A stretch of 31,959 nt of DNA from positions 1 through 31,959 of IMG/VR virus record IMGVR_UViG_3300044732_002850. One strand, written 5' to 3'. Below, piece after piece: positions 3,314 through 31,959 of the stretch; position 1 is the first letter of the stretch; each line of letters begins with the position of its first letter. This stretch comes from a virus. Position numbers and translations under genes: made by a program. The notes beneath the pieces are model-generated. The model was not told the origin of the DNA. It searched no databases and saw nothing but the letters and a program-made list of their open reading frames with translations.

Positions 3314-4360
3314 TTACTTGCAGAGGCTGCGGAGTGCAGTCTTGGCCCAGGTAGTGTGCATGGCCTTCTTGAGGTCACATGCCTTGAGCACGGCGCGCAG
3401 GGTCACTTCCCTGAGCTTGTTCAAATTGGCCATCAGGAAATTCATAACCTCATCAACCTCGTTCTTGGTGAAGTTATAGTCAGCCAGCATGTTGGTGGTT
3501 TCCACCACATTGCGCATGTGGATCACACGCTCACGCAACGTGTTCATGCTGATCCGGATATAGTGGCAACGGCTCATGATGGCCTGCAGGTGGTTGATAA
3601 TGCGGGCGCTCTTGCAGTTCTCAAAGTCAATATTGGTGAGGAAGATGATGCCGCCCTTGAATTCAAAAGAGCTGGGAACACCTTCCTTTTCCAGAATGTG
3701 GCTGTTGGTGCCCCAATGAATGCGACGCACCTTCTTGGTGTCCAAAGCGGCCTTCAAAATATTCAAGGCATCTTCATCATACAGCACACCATCACAATCA
3801 TCCAGCACCAGCACACTGCCTTCCTCGCTATACTTGTAGAGGGTCATATACAGCGTAATAGCACTCAAATTGCCCTTGAACACATCATACTGAGGCAGGC
3901 GGCTCATGAGCTTGGCCTGCACACCCAGGGTGTCATCCAGAGTGGATTCCACAGTGTGGCTTTTGCCCACGCCAGCGGGTCCGCTGACAACCAGGCCTTT
4001 CACCACACCGTTGGCCACGGCGCTGGTCATCTCGCTGAGGATGTCAAAAGTTTCCTTGAGGTCCGCAGCAATCTCATCGTCAGTGCGGCCCTGATCCTCG
4101 TCCTCATCAGCCTTGACAGCAGCGGCGCCAGTCTTGGCGTCCAGCATCTCATAGTCAGTAGGCTTGGTGAGGTAGATGCGGTTCTTGCCGTTGCGGATGC
4201 CATCAATGTTGACGTCCTTGCCGTCCACGGTGATGAACATGCCGATCTCGTTGCGCTGCAGGTGTCCCAGCAGGCGGAACACAGTGTCCCGAATTTCAAC
4301 GCCAGCCTTGGTAGCGCCAGTGTGGACGCGAACAAAAGCGTTATTGAGTTCCATGTGCAT
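3314..4360 (-). CDS. AAA+ family ATPase
   Basis: The 348-residue protein has a Walker A loop GPAGVGKS at about 127-134 and a Walker B strand VLVLDDCDG at about 183-191, with later TNIDF and R-rich segments compatible with sensor and arginine-finger positions. The N-terminal 100 residues (VHTGATKAGVEIRDTVFRLL) form a separate domain ending in an acidic linker. It is probably a nucleic-acid or protein remodelling ATPase used early in infection. Two sigma-70-like promoters lie upstream. The start at 4360 (MHMELNN) follows AAGGA; 4354 is the alternative, and the leader CATAGAGAGCAAGGA is shared with two plus-strand genes. The specific partner is unknown. Confidence 0.75.
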   Translation of the reverse strand: MHMELNNAFVRVHTGATKAGVEIRDTVFRLLGHLQRNEIGMFITVDGKDVNIDGIRNGKNRIYLTKPTDYEMLDAKTGAAAVKADEDEDQGRTDDEIAADLKETFDILSEMTSAVANGVVKGLVVSGPAGVGKSHTVESTLDDTLGVQAKLMSRLPQYDVFKGNLSAITLYMTLYKYSEEGSVLVLDDCDGVLYDEDALNILKAALDTKKVRRIHWGTNSHILEKEGVPSSFEFKGGIIFLTNIDFENCKSARIINHLQAIMSRCHYIRISMNTLRERVIHMRNVVETTNMLADYNFTKNEVDEVMNFLMANLNKLREVTLRAVLKACDLKKAMHTTWAKTALRSLCK

Positions 4361-5130: not shown

Positions 5131-5159
5131 TTGACACTCAAGAGCCAACGTGCTATAAT
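5131..5159 (+). promoter_or_regulatory. Consensus sigma-70 promoter
   Basis: TTGACA (5131-5136), a 17-base spacer and TATAAT (5154-5159): both hexamers and the spacing are perfect. GATTTTTTGG lies just upstream, as at the 4587 promoter. Confidence 0.88.
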
Positions 5160-5184
5160 GCCCACATAGAGCAAGGAGCACACC

Positions 5185-12384: not shown

Positions 12385-13786
12385 TTAATCTTTCTTTCCT
12401 GTGTTGATTTATACATTCTACTGCGTATGCAACTGTATCGGCAGGGTTGTCTCTGAATTCACTTTCCCAAATTATGTAGACGTGAGATACGTCCTTATGT
12501 GAGTTTATAGCATGTATCCGTCTTTTGTCATCAAGCCAAACCAAACTAACTGACTTATCATATATTTTATCTGATGCCTTATATTTGCAAGGGTTGGCAT
12601 GCCAATAATCACCTAAAAACTCTATTACTACACTACTACTCGCATCAAAAAAATCCACACAAAATCTACTTAACTGGCGTTCATAATTGAGTGATTTATA
12701 ATATAATCCAGATTCGCCTATGCGATCCTTGATCATATCAAACATCTTCTGGCTTATCAGACTATGATTTTTCCTTTTAGAGAAGTAGGCTATACTCATA
12801 GATGTTGCTTGTTCTTCATCATATCCTCTTGCCATAATACCATCTATGGTGTGGCTGCGCTTCAAATTTATGAGTGCCTTCTCTTCAGAACTTTTGTTTG
12901 CTAAAGTTTTTAGCCATTGTGCGATACTTTCTGGTGTTTTATTATGGGATTGCACTCTACGCACCTCGGTTTCTGCCTGGGTTTGTGTATAACCTCTCTT
13001 CAACCAATAAGCCAAGCTTCTTACAGAATATTCGCTCGTCCCAGTGAGCAACTCAAGTGCACGTTGGTTTCTACCCTTTTGAACAAGACGCACTTGATGT
13101 TCAGCCCCTTGAAGGCTTAGCCCCTTATCAGTCCAATAGCCTAGTGTGTTTGTGAAGTGAGCTGTCTTCTTTCCGCATGCTGTATCATATAACTCTTTCC
13201 CCAAACGTGCACCATATCTGAGCACATATGAATAGAGACTTGTTTGCCCGGCTGATTTAATTCTTTTATATCTCCCCACATAGTTTGTGAGATTTTGTAT
13301 AATGAACCAGGATGCTGTATATCGCAAATAATGGTGTTTGTTACGATCAACATATTTTAGCAGTGCACAGATTCTGTCTTGTTGTAGACATGTTAACTTG
13401 TCCCAGGTGATGTTTCTCTCCTGGAGTAATTCTAGTGAGTTAACATACCCCTCTTCGTAGCTGCTTGCTTTTCTCTTTTTACTTGACAGAAACATCCCCC
13501 TATTATGGTGGATGCATTCGCCAATCTTATCACCATAGATATATACAAGGCTGCTTTTTAGTTTTACATCCACATTGCTAGTAGATAGCTCTTGATATCT
13601 GATCCATGATTTATAAATTGAGTTAGGCTGGTTTTTGATTACAGTTATCAACTGATCGACTTTACCAGCACTCATAGGGTATGACTCTGTTGCTATTTGT
13701 TCAATCTCTTCTATTTGTTGACTATTGAACATTGATTGATTGATTCCTGCTTCTTTGAAGTATTTTCTATCAAAAATTGATCGCAT
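12368..13786 (-). CDS. Homing endonuclease with Vsr-like nuclease domain, inside fractured uvsX
   Basis: A 472-residue protein whose last 90 residues include CVDFFDASSSVVIEFLGDYWH, VWLDDKRRIHAI and VYIIWESEF. This layout (an acidic residue in a strand, GDYWH, a basic DDKRR helix, a strand ending in IWE) is that of the Vsr/very-short-patch-repair nuclease fold, as described for endonucleases between split-intein gene halves. The middle holds repeats (GYWTDKGLSLQGAEHQV, AYWLKRGYTQTQAETEV, AYFSKRKNHS) that are probably DNA-binding. It lies exactly between the two halves of uvsX, has its own late promoter and overlaps the C-half. It probably cuts intein-less uvsX genes of rival phages. Confidence 0.8.
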   Translation of the reverse strand: MRSIFDRKYFKEAGINQSMFNSQQIEEIEQIATESYPMSAGKVDQLITVIKNQPNSIYKSWIRYQELSTSNVDVKLKSSLVYIYGDKIGECIHHNRGMFLSSKKRKASSYEEGYVNSLELLQERNITWDKLTCLQQDRICALLKYVDRNKHHYLRYTASWFIIQNLTNYVGRYKRIKSAGQTSLYSYVLRYGARLGKELYDTACGKKTAHFTNTLGYWTDKGLSLQGAEHQVRLVQKGRNQRALELLTGTSEYSVRSLAYWLKRGYTQTQAETEVRRVQSHNKTPESIAQWLKTLANKSSEEKALINLKRSHTIDGIMARGYDEEQATSMSIAYFSKRKNHSLISQKMFDMIKDRIGESGLYYKSLNYERQLSRFCVDFFDASSSVVIEFLGDYWHANPCKYKASDKIYDKSVSLVWLDDKRRIHAINSHKDVSHVYIIWESEFRDNPADTVAYAVECINQHRKERLNDRTD

Positions 13787-13808
13787 ACCATATCTCTCTT
13801 TTTCAAAA

Positions 13809-13817
13809 GTATTTATG
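13809..13817 (-). promoter_or_regulatory. T4-like late promoter for the uvsX endonuclease
   Basis: Minus-strand CATAAATAC, 23 bases before the endonuclease ATG, followed by AAAGAGAGAT as ribosome binding site. Confidence 0.65.
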
Positions 13818-13832
13818 TTATGCGATCAATCT

Positions 13833-13859
13833 GGATAAAAAATTATCTCTTTTTTATCC
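13833..13859 (-). terminator. Hairpin overlapping the stop of the uvsX N-half
   Basis: GGATAAAAAA pairs with TTTTTTATCC (10 bp, seven-base loop), with the TAA stop of the N-half inside. The T-rich arm would allow some termination between N-half and endonuclease, separating early uvsX transcription from the late endonuclease message. Confidence 0.55.
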
Positions 13860-14088
13860 TAGCCCGCACCTTGGCGATAGATGGTAAACAGCCACTTTCT
13901 CCAGCCAAAACAGCAACTTTGCCCAAGGGGATGCCGCCATCTCTGAACCTGCCGCTAATGGCATAATTGAGTGCATAGTTGCCTGTGCTGATCCACACCT
14001 TGGGATCTCTAAAGCCCACGCTCAAGCCAGGAATATTTTTGGTAATATCTTTTCTAAATTTGGTTAAATCTAATGTTTTGACTGTCAT
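13843..14088 (-). CDS. uvsX: UvsX recombinase N-half with a 15-residue N-intein
   Basis: Residues 1-66 match the UvsX N terminus and end KVAVLAGESG, the first half of the Walker A loop. Residues 67-81, CLPSIAKVRARIKKR, start with the Cys-Leu-Pro of intein block A and then stop. Joined to SGKS of the C-half, this gives GESGSGKS, a perfect Walker A. Neither half can bind ATP alone. N-inteins this short are rare: the atypically split VidaL family, which as I recall includes a UvsX member, has 16 residues. The ATG has AAGGA 5 bases upstream. The gene lies directly after gene 32. Confidence 0.88.
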   Translation of the reverse strand: MTVKTLDLTKFRKDITKNIPGLSVGFRDPKVWISTGNYALNYAISGRFRDGGIPLGKVAVLAGESGCLPSIAKVRARIKKR

Positions 14089-14129
14089 GGCTGTCCTTGT
14101 TATTGATCATATGTATATATAGACAGAAA

Positions 14130-14154
14130 GGGAGGGCCCGTCAAGAGCCCTCCC
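14130..14154 (-). terminator. Terminator after gene 32
   Basis: GGGAGGGC (14130-14137) pairs with GCCCTCCC (14147-14154). On the minus strand it is followed by TTTCTGTCT, giving a typical intrinsic terminator between gene 32 and uvsX. Confidence 0.75.
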
Positions 14155-14167
14155 AGGATAATTTTAG

Positions 14168-25152: not shown

Positions 25153-25974
25153 ATGGGTGCCCAAATCAAAGATATAGACTTTCTCTATGTCAACAATTTA
25201 CAATTACACATGAAAGTCAAAGTTTTCTATCATGTTTTCATACCCCCTGATATCAGAGCAGCATCATGGACCTTGTATGTGGATGAGCAGTTGGGTATGA
25301 TCAAAAACAGCAAGCTATCAGACTGTGCTGGTGTGTATGTAACATTTACAATGCCCAAGTTTTGGACCGGCTTTGGCAATCTCCCCTATACCAGTGAAGC
25401 AAATCCCAATAATTTTATAAATTTTGGCGAACGAGTTCATGAATACATGAGCAGGAGGTATCCCTGGGTAACTATCTTGGAAATAAGAGATATCAATGCA
25501 AATATTTTTGAAGGATTGACTCTCAAGTATTTGCATGATGCCAGCCAAAAGGAAGATTTTCTAGCATTGTATATTCATACCAAAGGTATCACCACTGCAT
25601 CTGAAACAGTGCTGGCCTGGAAACAGTTACTCAATCATTATCATATTAATCAATGGCCACAAGCAATCAGATTACTTGATGATTATCAGGTGGTGGGGAT
25701 GCAGGATGCACACTCTGTGAATCATCCTATTGTTAGTGGCAATTTCTTTTGGGCACGGTCTGATTATATCAGAGGCTTGGTTGAGCCCCTGGATACCAGA
25801 ACCTATACTCATGAACAGCAGTTGTGGCCTGGCAATCATGCCTATAGATATGGATTTGAACTGTGGATTTTAAGCCAAAATCCACAGGTTTATTATTGGG
25901 TTGATACTAAAATCAACCATTATGACAAATATTGTTTCTTGGAAGAGTTGCTCAAACAAAATCCCCCAAGTTAG
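25153..25974 (+). CDS. Glycosyltransferase-like protein
   Basis: A 273-residue product. MKVKVFYHVFIPPDIRAASW at about residue 20, then NSKLSDCAGVYVTF, WVTILEIRD, YEGLTLKYLHD-type and DFLALYIHTKGI, followed by WKQLLNHYHINQWPQAIRLL, YQVVGMQ, and HPIVSGNFFWARSDYIRGL. The order YHV...YIHTKG...W...NFFWA-YI is one I associate with glycosyltransferase-like proteins of phages and bacteria. GGAGAGAGA lies about 10 bases before the first ATG; the ATG at 25210 begins exactly at the conserved strand and is an alternative. It is a plus-strand accessory gene between minus-strand tail genes. A role in capsid or host-surface glycosylation is inference. Confidence 0.65.
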   Translation: MGAQIKDIDFLYVNNLQLHMKVKVFYHVFIPPDIRAASWTLYVDEQLGMIKNSKLSDCAGVYVTFTMPKFWTGFGNLPYTSEANPNNFINFGERVHEYMSRRYPWVTILEIRDINANIFEGLTLKYLHDASQKEDFLALYIHTKGITTASETVLAWKQLLNHYHINQWPQAIRLLDDYQVVGMQDAHSVNHPIVSGNFFWARSDYIRGLVEPLDTRTYTHEQQLWPGNHAYRYGFELWILSQNPQVYYWVDTKINHYDKYCFLEELLKQNPPS

Positions 25975-26285
25975 CCTGTGCCCACTTGGCCATAGGTAAT
26001 TTCAGCAATCATTTTTTGCTGACTGATGATACCTTGCAGCATCACCTGATGAGCAGTATCAATAACTTCAGTTTGGTGATCCTCTTTGACCAAGCTGATG
26101 AGATTGCCCAAAGTCTCACTAATAGATTCAATGGCTAGTCCTAGGGCAATATTTTTGCCCATGTTTGGGCTGTAATATTCCATGAGATCCACAGCATATT
26201 TGGTCATTACTCCAGCAGCCTGATACCTAGCACGGGCATAAATTACTTCTGGATCCTGATCCCAATCAATATCATCGTTGTCCAT
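25971..26285 (-). CDS. Hypothetical helical protein between tail genes
   Basis: A 104-residue product starting MDNDDIDWDQDPEVIYARARYQA. It is acidic at the start and then helical (MTKYAVDLMEYYSPNMGKNIALGL, MLQGIISQQKMIAEITYG). The ATG at 26285 is preferred over a TTG 9 bases upstream. Its end overlaps the glycosyltransferase end by 4 bases from the opposite strand. On the minus strand it lies between the sheath and tube genes, so it may be part of the original late operon, now separated from the sheath by two endonuclease genes. Unrecognised. Confidence 0.62.
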   Translation of the reverse strand: MDNDDIDWDQDPEVIYARARYQAAGVMTKYAVDLMEYYSPNMGKNIALGLAIESISETLGNLISLVKEDHQTEVIDTAHQVMLQGIISQQKMIAEITYGQVGTG

Positions 26286-26360
26286 TTTTACCAACTAATA
26301 GTGTTGTTATATTCATAATATACAGTGTAATGCTGTTGTGTCAAAGATTGATTCAAGAGC

Positions 26361-26390
26361 AAAAAAGCGGAGTTTGATGCTCCGCTTTTT
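26361..26390. terminator. Bidirectional terminator (oldest sheath terminator)
   Basis: AAAAAGCGGAG (26362-26372), loop TTTGATG, then CTCCGCTTTTT (26380-26390), with T runs on both strands. It lies directly after the remnant sheath 3' end when read on the minus strand. Confidence 0.85.
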
Positions 26391-26401
26391 GTTTGTGGCT
26401 G

Positions 26402-26449
26402 TTATGGCAGTGAATCACCAGTGTTCAGCACTTGTTTATGGATAGATAT
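26402..26449 (-). pseudogene. Diverged remnant of a tail sheath 3' end
   Basis: On the minus strand this reads ISIHKQVLNTGDSLP then TAA. The live sheath ends IYIPLRILNTGDPLIT, so LNTGD and flanking residues align, and the DNA block ATCACCAGTGTTCA is shared. The GCGGAG terminator follows it as in the other copies. It appears to be the original gene end, cut off by endonuclease-gene insertion. Confidence 0.65.
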
Positions 26450-26459
26450 TGCTATATAA

Positions 26460-26467
26460 CTAAATAA
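26460..26467 (+). promoter_or_regulatory. Late-promoter-like site for the first endonuclease
   Basis: CTAAATAA, followed by AGGAG at 26472-26476; 17 bases separate the core from the CTG at 26485. Confidence 0.5.
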
Positions 26468-26484
26468 GTTTAGGAGATACTCCC

Positions 26485-28125
26485 CTGCCAGTAATATGTC
26501 AATTATGCCAATCCAGTTTCAATAATCTCATATCTAGTTCACATTTGAAGACCGTTCATCAAACCACAAGTGCAAAATACAAACAAGATTTTGGTGATGA
26601 TAGTTTGGCTAGCGCAGAATATAGGGCTAGACGCAGTGAACAGAACAAGGGTGAGAATAACCCCAATTTTGGAAATAAAATGTCCCAACTGTCCAAAGAA
26701 GTTATTTCACAAAAGAACACTGGCCGAATACCAGTGAACAAAGGTGTCAAGGTGACAGATCCTATTATCTTGGATAAAATCCATAAAGCTGTGGACAAGA
26801 GAGAACAACGATACAAAGAGCAAGGGATTCATCCTCGCACAGGTAGCACTGTGAATGAACAAGCAAGAAATAAAATCGGTCAAGGTGTTAATGCATATGC
26901 ACAACAACATCCAGATCTTGTAAAACAACGTGCAGCCAAAGCCCAACAAACACTACGTGACAGAGGATATCTGTTTGGCAGCGGTATGAGAGGCAAAAAG
27001 CACACCCATGCAAGTCTGGAAGCTATGAGAAAGGCACGGGAAATTGCAAATCTTAAAAAGAGTTCCCAAAGCCTTGATAAATTACATCAAGCTGTCCAAT
27101 TATCTGGCCTAGAATTTATTAAATTGGAAGCAAATGTCGTAACAATTAAATGCGACTCCTGTGATAATCAATTTAATTTGACTAGACAGTATTTCACACC
27201 CAGCAAACTCCGATCTGATATGTGTCCTGTATGTAGGCCGGAAAAAGTCAAAAGTGATGCTGAACTTGACCTGTTATCATATGTGCGTGAGATTTTGCCC
27301 AATCAGCTCATCATAAGTGGAGATAGGAATCAGATATCTCCGTTGGAGTTGGACATTTATATTCCTCACAAACGGTTGGCTATTGAATATTGCGGGTTAT
27401 ATTGGCATAGTGAATTGCAGGGTAAACACAAAATGTATCACAAACACAAGATGCAAAACTGTGAATCCCAAGGTATAAGGTTGATCACTATATTTGAAGA
27501 TGAATGGATACTCAATCCAAATCTTGTGCGCAGCAGGCTGGCTGTTATATTGGGGCGTGCCATACATAAATTACATGCTCGCAAGTGCATGGTTAAACAG
27601 ATTGACTGCGCTCTGGCTAGAGATTTTTGTAGAATAAATCACATACAGGGGGCAGGTAGTGCTAGTGCAGCTATAGGATTATATTATGAAGATATGCTTG
27701 TGAGTGTGGCCACATTTAGCAAGCCTAACATCAGCAAGGGCGCTAAAAAATCCCAGGTCAATCATTGGGAACTTAATCGTCTTTGTAGTTTGGCGGATCA
27801 TGTTGTTAGGGGGGCAGCAAACAAGTTGTTTGCACACTTTGTCAAGACCCATGATCCAGATCAAGTGATTACTTATTGTGATTTAAGATGGAACACAGGC
27901 GATGTATATTCTCACATGGGATTTATACAACACAGTGTAGGTTTTCCCAATTACTGGTATATCCAGCTTCCTCAAATCAAGAGGATGCACAGATTCGGGT
28001 TAAGAAAAAACGCACAAGATGATCCTACCCTTACTGAATGGGAAAACCGTAAACTTCAAAGATTCAATCGAATTTGGGATTGTGGACACAGCAAATGGGT
28101 ATGGAACAACAAGAATGCGGAGTAG
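26485..28125 (+). CDS. Homing endonuclease with Vsr-like domain, CTG start (copy 1)
   Basis: Read from a CTG at 26485, 8 bases after AGGAG, the 546-residue protein begins (CTG read as Met) MPVICQLCQSSFNNLISS, a C-x2-C...H-type finger followed by GENNPNFG and NUMOD3-like basic repeats (GMRGKKHTHASLEAMRKA). A second zinc ribbon (CDSCDNQF...CPVCRPEK) precedes the nuclease domain: LELDIYIPHKRLAIEYCGLY, WHSE, and IRLITIFEDEW. The C-terminal third (WELNRLCSL, YCDLRWNTGDVY) is shared with copy 2. The first standard-type start in frame is TTG at 26545, which would remove the finger. It is free-standing, tail-on to a sheath 3' end copy; its end codons form part of the terminator stem. Confidence 0.78.
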   Translation: MPVICQLCQSSFNNLISSSHLKTVHQTTSAKYKQDFGDDSLASAEYRARRSEQNKGENNPNFGNKMSQLSKEVISQKNTGRIPVNKGVKVTDPIILDKIHKAVDKREQRYKEQGIHPRTGSTVNEQARNKIGQGVNAYAQQHPDLVKQRAAKAQQTLRDRGYLFGSGMRGKKHTHASLEAMRKAREIANLKKSSQSLDKLHQAVQLSGLEFIKLEANVVTIKCDSCDNQFNLTRQYFTPSKLRSDMCPVCRPEKVKSDAELDLLSYVREILPNQLIISGDRNQISPLELDIYIPHKRLAIEYCGLYWHSELQGKHKMYHKHKMQNCESQGIRLITIFEDEWILNPNLVRSRLAVILGRAIHKLHARKCMVKQIDCALARDFCRINHIQGAGSASAAIGLYYEDMLVSVATFSKPNISKGAKKSQVNHWELNRLCSLADHVVRGAANKLFAHFVKTHDPDQVITYCDLRWNTGDVYSHMGFIQHSVGFPNYWYIQLPQIKRMHRFGLRKNAQDDPTLTEWENRKLQRFNRIWDCGHSKWVWNNKNAE

Positions 28126-28142
28126 GTTGACCTACTCCGCAT
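28115..28142. terminator. Terminator hairpin, copy 1 end
   Basis: AATGCGGAGTAGG and CCTACTCCGCATT-type arms form a 12-bp stem with loop TTGA. The last codons and TAG stop of the endonuclease are the left arm. Confidence 0.75.
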
Positions 28143-28231
28143 CTTATACCCATTAGGTGATTAGTGGATCACCAGTGTTCAAAATTCTCAGTGGTATGTA
28201 GATGAATTCAATTGCCTTGGTGGGCTTGATA
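28131..28231 (-). repeat. 101-bp perfect copy of the sheath 3' end
   Basis: Identical base for base to 30008-30108. It holds half of the terminator hairpin, the sheath stop codon and the last 26 or so sheath codons (28153-28231), ending abruptly without the rest of the gene. It is a gene-end orphan, not a functional gene. Confidence 0.92.
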
Positions 28232-28277
28232 TCTTAAATATCGAGCCAAATAATTATGATTATGCTTTGTTCTGCGA

Positions 28278-28286
28278 CATAAATAC
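28278..28286 (+). promoter_or_regulatory. T4-like late promoter for the second endonuclease
   Basis: CATAAATAC, 22 bases before the ATG at 28308. Confidence 0.65.
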
Positions 28287-28307
28287 GCAGAACACAAGGA
28301 ACAATGC

Positions 28308-30002
28308 ATGCAGGATTTAAAAGAATCTCTTAATTCTATACCCAAAAACAAATGGAACTCTCAAGTTAAGAGAAATTCTACATGGCTCACCTATCTCAAA
28401 GAGACTTACCCATTCACAACCAGTGTGAATGAACAGATATACCTGTTCATGCATGACCTTTCCACCAGGCCCAATTGCGCTGTGAACACATGTGATAAAT
28501 CAGTCAATTGGATCAACAATAATCACTATACCCAAACCTGTTCAAGTTCCTGTGCACAGCATCTAAAAAAACAAACGGGCGAATTGACCATCATTCAAGA
28601 GAAAATCAAGGCCACTACCATGGCAAGATATGGGGTACCAAACGCCCTTCAAAATCCTGCTGTGCAGGCCAAGCGCAATCAGACATTACTGGAAAAATAT
28701 GGTGCACTGGTCAGTCCTAATACAAGAGCTAGTACAGTTGCAAGATCTCAAGTTATGAATAAAAAAGGAAGGCAAACACTAGAAACCAAATATGGGGTTA
28801 CCAATCCCAGCCAGATCCCTGGTGTTCATGAAAAAAAGACTGCCACCATGATGGCCAATCACGGTGTCTACCATCCCAGTCTTATCCCTCATGTGCAACA
28901 AGCTAGATTGGATAGAAGAATAAACAGGTATCAGCACCTAGTAGGAGATGTCGCCACGATTCTATCGTGGAACTCGCCATCACAATATTTGCAAGACGCA
29001 TATGATGATCCCAATCCTAGGATAGAGTTTCGGTGCACCGCTTGTGATAATGTGGAACAGTTGGCCATGGAAACATTCAGATGGCGCATCCACGCATGTG
29101 GAACACCCTGCATCAAATGTAGCCAAATAAACAAAGGCAGCTTACAGGAGCGTGAACTGAGAGAGTATGTGAAATCTTTGGGAGTGGCTATGATATCCAA
29201 TGACAGACAACAACTTCATCCACAGGAATTGGATATTCTGTTGCCTGACCATAATTTGGCTATTGAATATTGCGGATTATATTGGCATAGTGAACTGCAT
29301 GGGAAACACAAGTCCGTGCATTTAGACAAAATGAACAAATGTTCCAGCCAAGGCATCAGATTGGTTACCATATTTGAAGATGAATGGTTGCACAAATCTC
29401 AAGTGGTCAAAGATCGTATCAGAAATATGTTGGGGCGTAATACACAAAAAATAGGTGCAAGATCACTCATCTGTGAATCCATCACATCTGCACAAGCCAA
29501 CAAATTCTGTGCTGACTATCATATTCAGGGCGTGGGTAAGACAGTACATGCATATGGGTTATATCAAGATCAAGAGCTGTTGAGTGTGATGACATTCAGT
29601 GCTCTCACACCTGCCAAAGGCAGCTTGCCTCAACCCCAAGTGTGGGAACTGAATAGACTGTGTACAAGACCCAATTTAACCATATCTGGTGGAGCCAGCC
29701 GGATGTTCTGTAAATTTGTGAGAGACATAAACCCCCAACAAGTGATCAGTTATAGCGACAGACGATGGAATACCGGTCATGTATATGCACAATTGGGATT
29801 TGATAGGCACCATGATGCTCCTCCCAACTACTGGTATATAGATTTCAAAGCCATGTTGAGAATACACAGATACAATCTACGTAAAAATGCTCATGATAAT
29901 CCCGATCTAACAGAATGGGAGAATCGTAAATTGCAGGGGTGGAATCGAATCTGGGACTGTGGGAATACCAAATGGATATGGAAAAACAAGAATGCGGAGT
30001 AG
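28308..30002 (+). CDS. Homing endonuclease with Vsr-like domain (copy 2)
   Basis: A 564-residue protein. The N-terminal region has CAVNTCDKSV...CSSSCAQH zinc-type cysteines and repeats (MARYGVPNALQNP, LEKYGALVSP, LETKYGVTNPSQIPGV, MANHGVYHPSLIP) of about 35-40 residues, probably DNA-binding. A second zinc ribbon (CTACDNVEQ...CIKCSQ) leads to the nuclease domain LDILLPDHNLAIEYCGLYWH, IRLVTIFEDEW, and the C-terminal third, YSDRRWNTGHVY, as in copy 1. The two share clear identity from the nuclease on but not the N-terminal repeats. AAGGA lies 7 bases before the ATG. The gene ends in the terminator hairpin. Confidence 0.82.
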   Translation: MQDLKESLNSIPKNKWNSQVKRNSTWLTYLKETYPFTTSVNEQIYLFMHDLSTRPNCAVNTCDKSVNWINNNHYTQTCSSSCAQHLKKQTGELTIIQEKIKATTMARYGVPNALQNPAVQAKRNQTLLEKYGALVSPNTRASTVARSQVMNKKGRQTLETKYGVTNPSQIPGVHEKKTATMMANHGVYHPSLIPHVQQARLDRRINRYQHLVGDVATILSWNSPSQYLQDAYDDPNPRIEFRCTACDNVEQLAMETFRWRIHACGTPCIKCSQINKGSLQERELREYVKSLGVAMISNDRQQLHPQELDILLPDHNLAIEYCGLYWHSELHGKHKSVHLDKMNKCSSQGIRLVTIFEDEWLHKSQVVKDRIRNMLGRNTQKIGARSLICESITSAQANKFCADYHIQGVGKTVHAYGLYQDQELLSVMTFSALTPAKGSLPQPQVWELNRLCTRPNLTISGGASRMFCKFVRDINPQQVISYSDRRWNTGHVYAQLGFDRHHDAPPNYWYIDFKAMLRIHRYNLRKNAHDNPDLTEWENRKLQGWNRIWDCGNTKWIWKNKNAE

Positions 30003-30019
30003 GGCACCCTACTCCGCAT
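29992..30019. terminator. Terminator hairpin between endonuclease 2 and the sheath gene
   Basis: ATGCGGAGTAGGG (29992-30004) pairs with CCCTACTCCGCAT (30007-30019). It serves both convergent genes, and the endonuclease stop lies in the stem. Confidence 0.75.
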
Positions 30020-30108
30020 CTTATACCCATTAGGTGATTAGTGGATCACCAGTGTTCAAAATTCTCAGTGGTATGTAGATGAATTCAATTGCCTTGGTGG
30101 GCTTGATA
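30008..30108 (-). repeat. 101-bp repeat, live copy at the sheath 3' end
   Basis: Identical to 28131-28231. Here it is the real end of the sheath gene, including the stop codon at 30030-30032. Confidence 0.92.
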
Positions 30109-31959
30109 GCAATATCAATCCACAGTTCATTTCTGTCAATGCGAGTGGGTGTGTTATTGGTTTCATCACACACCACAGCAAAGTCATACACAGCACGCAA
30201 GCTCACCATGTCACCAAAGAAGCTTTCAAAGGTGCGGGTCACTGCATCTCTTGTATACTGATCATTGGGTTCAAACAAGAATGGTTTGGCCAAATTATCC
30301 AACTGATAGTTGAGGTAGCAAACCAATCTGGCCACGTTCACTCTGTTGAGAGCACTTTCCACAGGGCTGAGGGTCTTTTGACCATACACAACCAGTCCGC
30401 GACCAGGTATAAACGCAATGGGGTTGATGTCATTTTCATACAACACATCACGTTGTCCCTGTGTCAATTGGAGTGGAATGTATTCTTGTTCAGTATTGAG
30501 GTAACCCACGCTGGTGACTGCTGTGACAATACCACGTGTGAAGCCTGCTGGAGCAAACCAAGGGTAGGCCACTTGGTCGTTGAACGCTATGGTTCTCAGT
30601 GTCATCATGCTGGGTGGCACAAAGATTTCTGTTCCATCCAGGTTGGTGGCCAGACCCCAGGGATAGTAGATGCCTGCATAACGGCTGCGAGTGATCAATC
30701 CATCTTCACCATTGCTGGCTGAATTGTTGCTGTTGTTGGCCCAAGCCTGGATGCTGGTGCCATCTGGAGCCAGTCTGGCTGGAGGATCCACTACTACAAA
30801 TGCCACATCCTTTTTGTCTGTGTTCAAGGTCAGCATTTCATCAATCACCTCTGGATAACCAGGAGCACTGATTAGGTTGTAGTAGTTGGCTTCTGAACGC
30901 AGTTCCTGATTGCTGACAATTGCACCAGCCATGGCACGCACCACCATGATTCTCTGAGCCTTGCGGCCCATCAAAGGTGCACCATTTACAGCGTTGCCAC
31001 TGGCTGTTACCCAACGGTCTCTCCATACACCTGTGGTGAGATAATTGGGTCTCCATTCTTTGACATTGTTGGTGCTGTAACGTGTGTTGAACAACATAAA
31101 TCCATATGGATAGGCCAGTGCGCTGGGTGCATCGGGGTCCACATAATTGCTGATCAGCATATCCTGAATGTTTGTGCTGCCTGTTTGCAGCCCATCATCA
31201 TTGGGTCTAGCGTCAGCAAACAAAATACCCTTGCTGCTGGTTTGATCGGTGTTGTCCACTGGTTCCCAAACCACATTCAAACTGTCATATCTATACAGTT
31301 TGGGATAATTTTCCATGTCACTGGTGTCTATCCACAAATCGTTGTCAGCAAGTGGTGTTGAGCCATCGCTTTGATAACTGGGTTCTGTGGCACTGAGTAT
31401 CACCCCATTGGGGTTGGTGTTGGAATACATGTTCCGATAACCCATCCACTGAGTTCCATCACTCACCATCACATCCACTTGTAGGTCCTGATTAAACCAC
31501 AATGTGCCTTGTGTGGGCTCACCCAGTGGTTCCGTCAACCTCTGATAGTAGGGAACTGTTATGCCATTCACTGTGTAATCTTCACATGCAATCCAGGCGC
31601 TGCCATTCCAAATTTTCACTTGGAAAGTTGCATTTACTGGGCTGGCCAGCAATATATTATATTGCACATACAGGCTGCCCAGGGTTCGTTGACTGCCCAG
31701 TGCTTGAGTGGCACTGGCATCATTCAAGTATAGTGGAGCAGATTTAAGCTGCCATTGATCCAACCCACTGTTGTATCTCTTGGCTGCCCAGAAGCTGCCG
31801 CGATTGGCAGCAACCAAATTTACCCAAATATTGCCAGCAGCTATTTGACTGGGAGTTCTGGGTTGAGGATTATCCACACTGTAGCTTGCATATACCAGTG
31901 AGTTACCATAGGTGTCTCCAGTATCAATATTGGCCCATTCTAGGGGAAGTTGTGTTGTT
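30030..31959 (-). CDS. 18: Tail sheath protein (T4 gp18-like), open at right edge
   Basis: The frame stays open to the right edge, so the listed end is not the start of the gene; at least 642 residues lie in the window (T4 gp18 has 659). The C-terminal part is diagnostic: GRGLVVYGQKTL, SALNRVNVARLVCYL (tail sheath 'N-x-RR-hh-h' segment), FEPND-x-x-TRD, and the closing ELWIDIAIKPTKAIEFIYIPLRI with LNTGD. The N-terminal parts visible contain repeated Trp/Gly segments (LWFNQDLQVDVMVSDG, WVASE-type) that look like inserted domains. The sheath contracts to drive the tube through the host envelope. Its 3' end is the target of two endonuclease genes. Confidence 0.9.
   Translation of the reverse strand, partial: TTQLPLEWANIDTGDTYGNSLVYASYSVDNPQPRTPSQIAAGNIWVNLVAANRGSFWAAKRYNSGLDQWQLKSAPLYLNDASATQALGSQRTLGSLYVQYNILLASPVNATFQVKIWNGSAWIACEDYTVNGITVPYYQRLTEPLGEPTQGTLWFNQDLQVDVMVSDGTQWMGYRNMYSNTNPNGVILSATEPSYQSDGSTPLADNDLWIDTSDMENYPKLYRYDSLNVVWEPVDNTDQTSSKGILFADARPNDDGLQTGSTNIQDMLISNYVDPDAPSALAYPYGFMLFNTRYSTNNVKEWRPNYLTTGVWRDRWVTASGNAVNGAPLMGRKAQRIMVVRAMAGAIVSNQELRSEANYYNLISAPGYPEVIDEMLTLNTDKKDVAFVVVDPPARLAPDGTSIQAWANNSNNSASNGEDGLITRSRYAGIYYPWGLATNLDGTEIFVPPSMMTLRTIAFNDQVAYPWFAPAGFTRGIVTAVTSVGYLNTEQEYIPLQLTQGQRDVLYENDINPIAFIPGRGLVVYGQKTLSPVESALNRVNVARLVCYLNYQLDNLAKPFLFEPNDQYTRDAVTRTFESFFGDMVSLRAVYDFAVVCDETNNTPTRIDRNELWIDIAIKPTKAIEFIYIPLRILNTGDPLIT

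Follow-up and report, generated by a model that had tools for sequence, protein, structure and literature searches.

In the viral contig IMGVR_UViG_3300044732_002850 of IMG/VR, analysed here over its full 31,959 nucleotides and referred to as the window, the 3' end of a contractile-tail sheath gene is present three times, and the three ends are separated by two Hef-type free-standing homing endonuclease genes (HEGs), designated HEG1 and HEG2. This arrangement is likely to be the product of two successive entries into the sheath 3' end, in which one-sided homologous repair of a break would have left a tandem gene end each time. Free-standing HEGs adjoin essential phage genes and their first entry, without gene breakage, is seldom visible. 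At this sheath locus both the before and the after states are available, and the displaced gene ends would constitute a record of successive invasions.

The sheath gene runs off the window at its 5' end, but its open reading frame (ORF) is uninterrupted and the near copy of the end is in frame with the gene core. The live end, which comprises the last sheath codons and 22 bp past the stop, is repeated at 28131-28231 with 0 mismatches over 101 bp relative to 30008-30108, and this repeat sits in a 251-bp stretch at 84% identity that includes the HEG 3' ends. In a flank-match control of 74 distinct HEG loci, shuffled sequence gave no match longer than 16 bp, and the 101-bp repeat is far above chance. 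Farther left lies an older end, encoding LNTGDSLP before the stop codon, with 18 of 19 positions matching the sheath end in its core. A GCGGAG hairpin lies behind each of the three ends (Table 1), and two of these hairpins (29992-30019 and 28115-28142) overlap with the stop codon of a HEG. An earlier reading made from the sequence alone had described the perfect repeat of the live end and the terminator behind each copy, and both descriptions are borne out. It had also placed a diverged copy at 26402-26449, of which the part at 26402-26429 is indeed a displaced end, whereas 26436-26459 turned out to be an inverted copy of another sheath segment.

Both HEGs lie on the plus strand and are convergent with the sheath gene. 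The sequence-only reading had called the genes between the copies related, in agreement with a 48% amino-acid identity across some 326 C-terminal residues, although the N-terminal parts are of different kinds, NUMOD3 in HEG1 and DUF7487 in HEG2. At the level of sequence, the HEG profile (A1) matches the mobile-intron nuclease of PDB entry 3r3p (E 9.4e-4), and a HEG profile match to the DNA-binding domain of I-TevI was also obtained (PDB 1i3j, E 0.0066). HEG1 probably starts at the CTG at 26485 rather than at the listed TTG at 26545; AGGAG is found eight bases 5' of this CTG, and the homologue in the related locus L007 (relatives are referred to by L numbers) has an ATG there. Between the copies, Hef-type genes alone were identified, with no integrase or recombinase gene. 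No structured RNA family, group I introns included, reached the cut-off in 25900-30300, and an intron at the insertion was rejected on this result.

The extent of the 251-bp repeat, which takes in the HEG 3' ends, could also reflect a segmental tandem duplication of the sheath end together with HEG1, followed by divergence of the HEGs, and nuclease-driven tandem amplification is known in phages from SegB (PMC13096335). However, the sheath ends are identical while the HEGs are 48% identical with unrelated N-terminal parts, and HEG2 does not appear to be a tandem copy of HEG1 because its N-terminal part matches HEGs from other phages (L023, L029) and not HEG1. A duplication with later divergence is thus very improbable, and was rejected on the mismatch of the N-terminal parts.

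The states preceding each insertion were found among relatives that a sheath search of viral contigs had brought up. L005 and L006 carry no HEG, and their sheath end is followed by the terminator and directly by the homologue of the gene downstream of the array in the window (the 26285 gene), as the sequence-only reading had expected of HEG-free relatives. The L005 stretch aligns with the window scrap, terminator and leader at a score of 82, against a shuffle maximum of 34. In L001 (IMGVR 3300044624_002630), which is 99.8% identical to the window and contains the sheath gene, one sheath end and HEG1, exactly 1877 bp are missing, corresponding to HEG2 plus one sheath end, with the window matched on both sides and a clean difference. 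A single HEG occupies the site in L007-L014 and in further relatives, and the order of HEG1 followed by HEG2 rests also on these one-HEG relatives. The complete two-HEG array with all ends is present in five contigs, namely the window, L089, L093, L094 and L096, the last four of which differ from the window by 4-12 bases across 6-11 kb; within the collection, the exact sheath end is carried by six contigs besides the window, the sixth of them, L095, beginning within HEG2.

Given a HEG-free L005, a one-HEG L001 and the two-HEG contigs, HEG1 sits, on sequence comparison, in the former native sheath end, and HEG2 in an end brought with, or surviving, HEG1. The proposed order of insertions thereby finds its two intermediate states, L001 being the HEG2-empty one and L005 the HEG1-empty one. 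The objection that the repeat might be an assembly artefact, or a chance repeat, is answered by the concordance of five contigs and by a length far above chance; no point in its favour was found, the artefact was rejected and the probability left to either is negligible. With regard to the far side of the array, a plus-strand ORF of 273 residues without Pfam or PHROG match (25153-25974) adjoins the 26285 gene; it is present only in near-identical contigs and absent from L005-L014.

Table 1. Features of the sheath locus, listed from the sheath gene leftwards (window positions).
Feature	Position	Strand	Evidence or remark
Tail sheath gene	30030..31959 (ORF 31958-30030)	minus	PHROG 10581 tail sheath, E 1.6e-191; Pfam Phage_sheath_1C, E 3.5e-15
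Sheath codons ELWIDIAIKP, putative recognition site	30099..30128	minus	repeat ends here; segment copied in HEG 5' flanks
Live sheath 3' end, adjoining HEG2	30008..30108	minus	101-bp exact repeat
GCGGAG hairpin, terminator-like	29992..30019		shared by sheath and HEG2, whose ends converge here
HEG2, Hef-type free-standing homing endonuclease gene	28308..30002	plus	PHROG 3339, E 6.5e-112; N-terminal DUF7487, Pfam E 1.1e-16
HEG2 5' flank	28232..28307	plus	late-promoter-like CATAAATA (28278-28285) inside 8-bp inverted repeat
Displaced sheath 3' end, attributed to HEG2 insertion	28131..28231	minus	exact repeat; absent along with HEG2 in L001
GCGGAG hairpin after displaced end	28115..28142		overlaps HEG1 stop
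HEG1, Hef-type endonuclease gene, zinc-finger/NUMOD3 N-terminal part	26485..28125	plus	PHROG 3339, E 2.7e-91
Late-promoter-like CTAAATA of HEG1	26460..26466	plus	
Inverted copy of sheath LWIDIAIK codons, putative operator, upstream of HEG1	26436..26459	plus	18/24 match, 0/2000 shuffles
Older displaced sheath 3' end, LNTGDSLP and stop	26402..26429	minus	sequence match
Native sheath terminator (GCGGAG hairpin)	26361..26390		aligns with L005 terminator directly behind its intact sheath end
Downstream gene (26285 gene)	25971..26294	minus	directly behind sheath in HEG-free L005, L006

The course of events proposed for both insertions begins with a cut. In a phage without the HEG in question, each enzyme would cleave close to the end of the sheath gene, and in the case of HEG2 both recognition and cut would fall within the codons for ELWIDIAIKP. 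The sheath side of the break would then be repaired from DNA in which the sheath end already runs into a HEG, while the far side would be joined at the cut on the basis of little homology or none. The sheath gene would come out whole, its end succeeded by a hairpin and a convergent HEG, and the old end would be displaced downstream and decay as scrap. The scrap at 26402 would stem from the entry of HEG1, and the perfect copy of 101 bp from a recent entry of HEG2. The identity of the HEG1 and HEG2 3' ends climbs from about 50-85% to 100% toward the hairpin, of which only the loop differs, and the crossover of the HEG2 event may have fallen in this conserved HEG end or in the hairpin. In that case the live sheath end would be the recipient's own, hence the perfect 101 bp; a donor of the same species or later gene conversion would be alternative sources of identical ends.

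The same outcome would be expected if the HEG and a replacement sheath end formed one mobile unit that imports a foreign end, as in the mobile ORFs of fungal mitochondria. This possibility, which is less likely than not, is favoured by the older event: the live gene ends in DPLIT and the old scrap in DSLP, resembling the DPLP of relatives, which hints that a different end came in with HEG1 (LP in the relatives and the scrap, LIT in the live gene), although the scrap is short. Furthermore, in L035, a locus described below, the live N-terminal end and its displaced counterpart have diverged by about 50%. Conversely, the HEG2 ends show no difference over 101 bp and the HEG1-side identity begins inside the HEG 3' end, so that the recipient, or a donor nearly identical to it, may have supplied the new end on the HEG2 side. 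The claim of the sequence-only reading that the elements restore the gene they invade therefore stands insofar as the sheath gene is whole after each insertion, but the end thought to be carried in may, for HEG2, be the recipient's own, because its two ends do not differ and because similarity to HEG1 reaches 100% within the HEG 3' end and hairpin.

Under successive invasion with break repair, the HEG2 breakpoint (30108/30109), which lies within the ELWIDIAIKP codons, would mark the target. This stretch shows inverted-repeat character, and target-like copies of it are found in HEG 5' flanks, inverted with respect to the sheath gene and 48-61 bases before the start. The copy upstream of HEG1 (Table 1) had escaped the sequence-only reading. 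Comparable matches were obtained in L104 and L175 (19/24 and 0/2000 shuffles each), L028 (18/24, 1/2000 shuffles, the HEG being truncated there) and L194 (17/24, 4/2000 shuffles), with a lower one in L107 (15/24, 52/2000). The target site ranked first of 91 sheath offsets across 19 loci, which are partly related and amount to about four independent lineages. These statistics are descriptive, as the site was noticed before the site-centred tests were designed, and the loci used for testing overlapped with those that had suggested it. An initial scan of lower specificity gave a clear copy in no more than a few loci, and the site-centred tests were relied on. The copy is not significant in type-B HEGs (HEG2, L023, L192) or in distant type-A HEGs.

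The target copies lie beside putative promoters. Of the four TAAATA copies on the plus strand of the window, one lies 24 bases before the HEG1 start and another 28 bases before that of HEG2; on the minus strand, several copies are found ahead of large ORFs. The target copy of HEG1 is placed directly before CTAAATA, and that of L104 directly before TATAAATA. A target copy beside a promoter of the HEG1 type would probably serve as an operator for autorepression. In the HEG2 flank, a perfect 8-bp inverted repeat at 28269-28293, GTTCTGCG/CGCAGAAC, flanks CATAAATA and folds better than 200 of 200 shuffles; it is perhaps a regulatory hairpin or operator.

Gene ends duplicated around nuclease genes are also found elsewhere. 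In L112, where the sheath gene ends in IMNTGAIAAGL, its terminator comes next and then a co-oriented Hef-type gene. The last codons of this Hef-type gene copy the sheath end (KWIMNTGAIAAGL, then the stop codon), and a copy of the terminator stands behind them, in total 91 bp at 97.8%. The terminator copies of L112 (near 3400-3430 and 5145-5176) differ in the loop base, which gives the impression that one hairpin is turned round with respect to the other. L003 (1698-4242), a relative of the window phage, has a Hef-type gene behind its head-tail connector gene (PHROG 211), and fused to this Hef-type gene in frame is a copy of the last 47 codons of the connector, with an exact match of 142 bp; L005, L006, L009 and L010 have a deoxynucleotide kinase-like gene directly behind the connector gene. 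Judging from their sequences, L112 and L003 are independent events of the same pattern, and an in-frame fusion of HEG and scrap is seen in both. At the connector-gene junction of L003, L007 has a GIY-YIG-like ORF without the repeat. L126 and L111 contain short repeats only, near the terminator.

When 2.1 Mb of fetched DNA were searched for direct repeats of at least 20 nt spaced 0.6-3.5 kb apart, the three longest were the L003, window and L112 cases (142, 101 and 70 nt), all around Hef-type genes; the scanned loci were drawn from the searches for sheath and HEG relatives, and the tally is that of a biased sample. Repeats of 57 and 35 nt correspond to neighbouring methyltransferase-like genes, and L007 (171-2524), L010 and L011 have two such genes side by side with a common conserved repeat of 20-57 nt. 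A 48-nt repeat in L035 surrounds a GIY-YIG nuclease. This locus (12692-14165) presents the mirror image at a 5' end, with a 5' fragment, the GIY-YIG nuclease gene and a full small-terminase-like gene; the displaced piece has 58 codons with its own start and is about 50% identical to the N-terminal part in use. A second nuclease-like ORF lies just upstream in L035, and two nucleases may be stacked there again.

Several observations weigh against successive invasion with break repair. The HEG1 scrap spans just about 28 bp, there is no convincing target copy in the HEG2 flank, and most Hef loci examined show no gene-end scrap. Seven cultured Hef phages (RaK2, Acj9, phiR1-RT, LIMEstone1, CP220, PSTCR6 and FL23) have neither a scrap nor a comparable target copy, and gene-end duplication is not universal among Hef phages. 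In Campylobacter phage CP220 (L234, 2174-5669), the Hef-type gene is convergent with the sheath gene, a layout it shares with the window, and no sheath end is repeated. Moreover, L001 is a single 5.9-kb contig, the only one with this state, and exactly this contig would result if the 101-bp repeats had recombined or if the assembly had taken a shortcut through them, in which case HEG2 could be older and its ends kept alike by gene conversion. This is unlikely, as one-HEG arrangements are the rule in L007-L014 and identical copies are most simply recent.

If the two HEGs did enter in this way, the sequences suggest where the cutter binds and how a HEG can enter an essential gene without killing the phage. 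The promoter-side copy predicts the target of the enzyme, making the recognition site testable without a screen, and gene-end scraps next to nuclease genes offer a possible way to detect past invasions. More tentatively, and with the balance tilting somewhat against it, phage HEGs may include a general class of invaders that restore gene ends: these would cut essential virion genes within their last or first codons, leave a working end and a scrap, and stack at one target, while those of the HEG1 type would keep an uncut target copy at the promoter as an autorepression switch that records the recognition site.

Among known systems, integrase elements can replace the 3' end of a gene, as phage 21 and e14 do in icd. 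The window resembles them in that the gene end is restored after insertion and the old end displaced, but it involves a nuclease and, in our reading, break repair instead of an integrase. With Hef and other free-standing HEGs of T4-type phages, as reviewed in PMC2988022, the locus shares the nuclease family (PHROG 3339, with a 3r3p-related nuclease domain), the place beside essential genes and presence or absence at one site, as between L001 and the five contigs; a search of that review by selected terms gave no case of a duplicated target-gene end. The operator of I-TevI is described there as resembling the homing site and overlapping a late promoter (PMC2988022). Similarly, HEG1, L104 and L175 have a sequence resembling the target beside the putative late promoter of the nuclease gene, and the HEG profile matches the I-TevI DNA-binding domain; HEG1 is nevertheless free-standing, with a different nuclease domain (3r3p match), and its repression would be by analogy. 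SegB, which amplifies segments of T4-type phages via short homology (PMC13096335), also links a nuclease to duplication, but it acts on existing segments and no new nuclease enters.

The closest parallel comes from outside phages, a limited search of the open-access literature having returned no phage report of gene-end duplication around endonucleases, which is weak evidence of absence. In the mobile ORFs of fungal mitochondria (atp6, cox2 and nad3 of Allomyces and Glomus), gene C-termini are duplicated around an endonuclease gene, the end brought in is of foreign origin, and the native one may be left without transcription (PMC3630166). As in these, a nuclease gene is flanked by two host-gene 3' ends in the window, L112 and L003, the gene core joins the near copy, with which it forms one open frame in the window (sheath ORF 31958-30030), and the native copy is displaced. 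The fungal elements encode LAGLIDADG or GIY-YIG nucleases and bring a foreign, diverged end; conversely, the window has Hef-type nucleases in antisense orientation to a phage tail gene, and its HEG2 ends are identical, the HEG1 pair being too short for this comparison.

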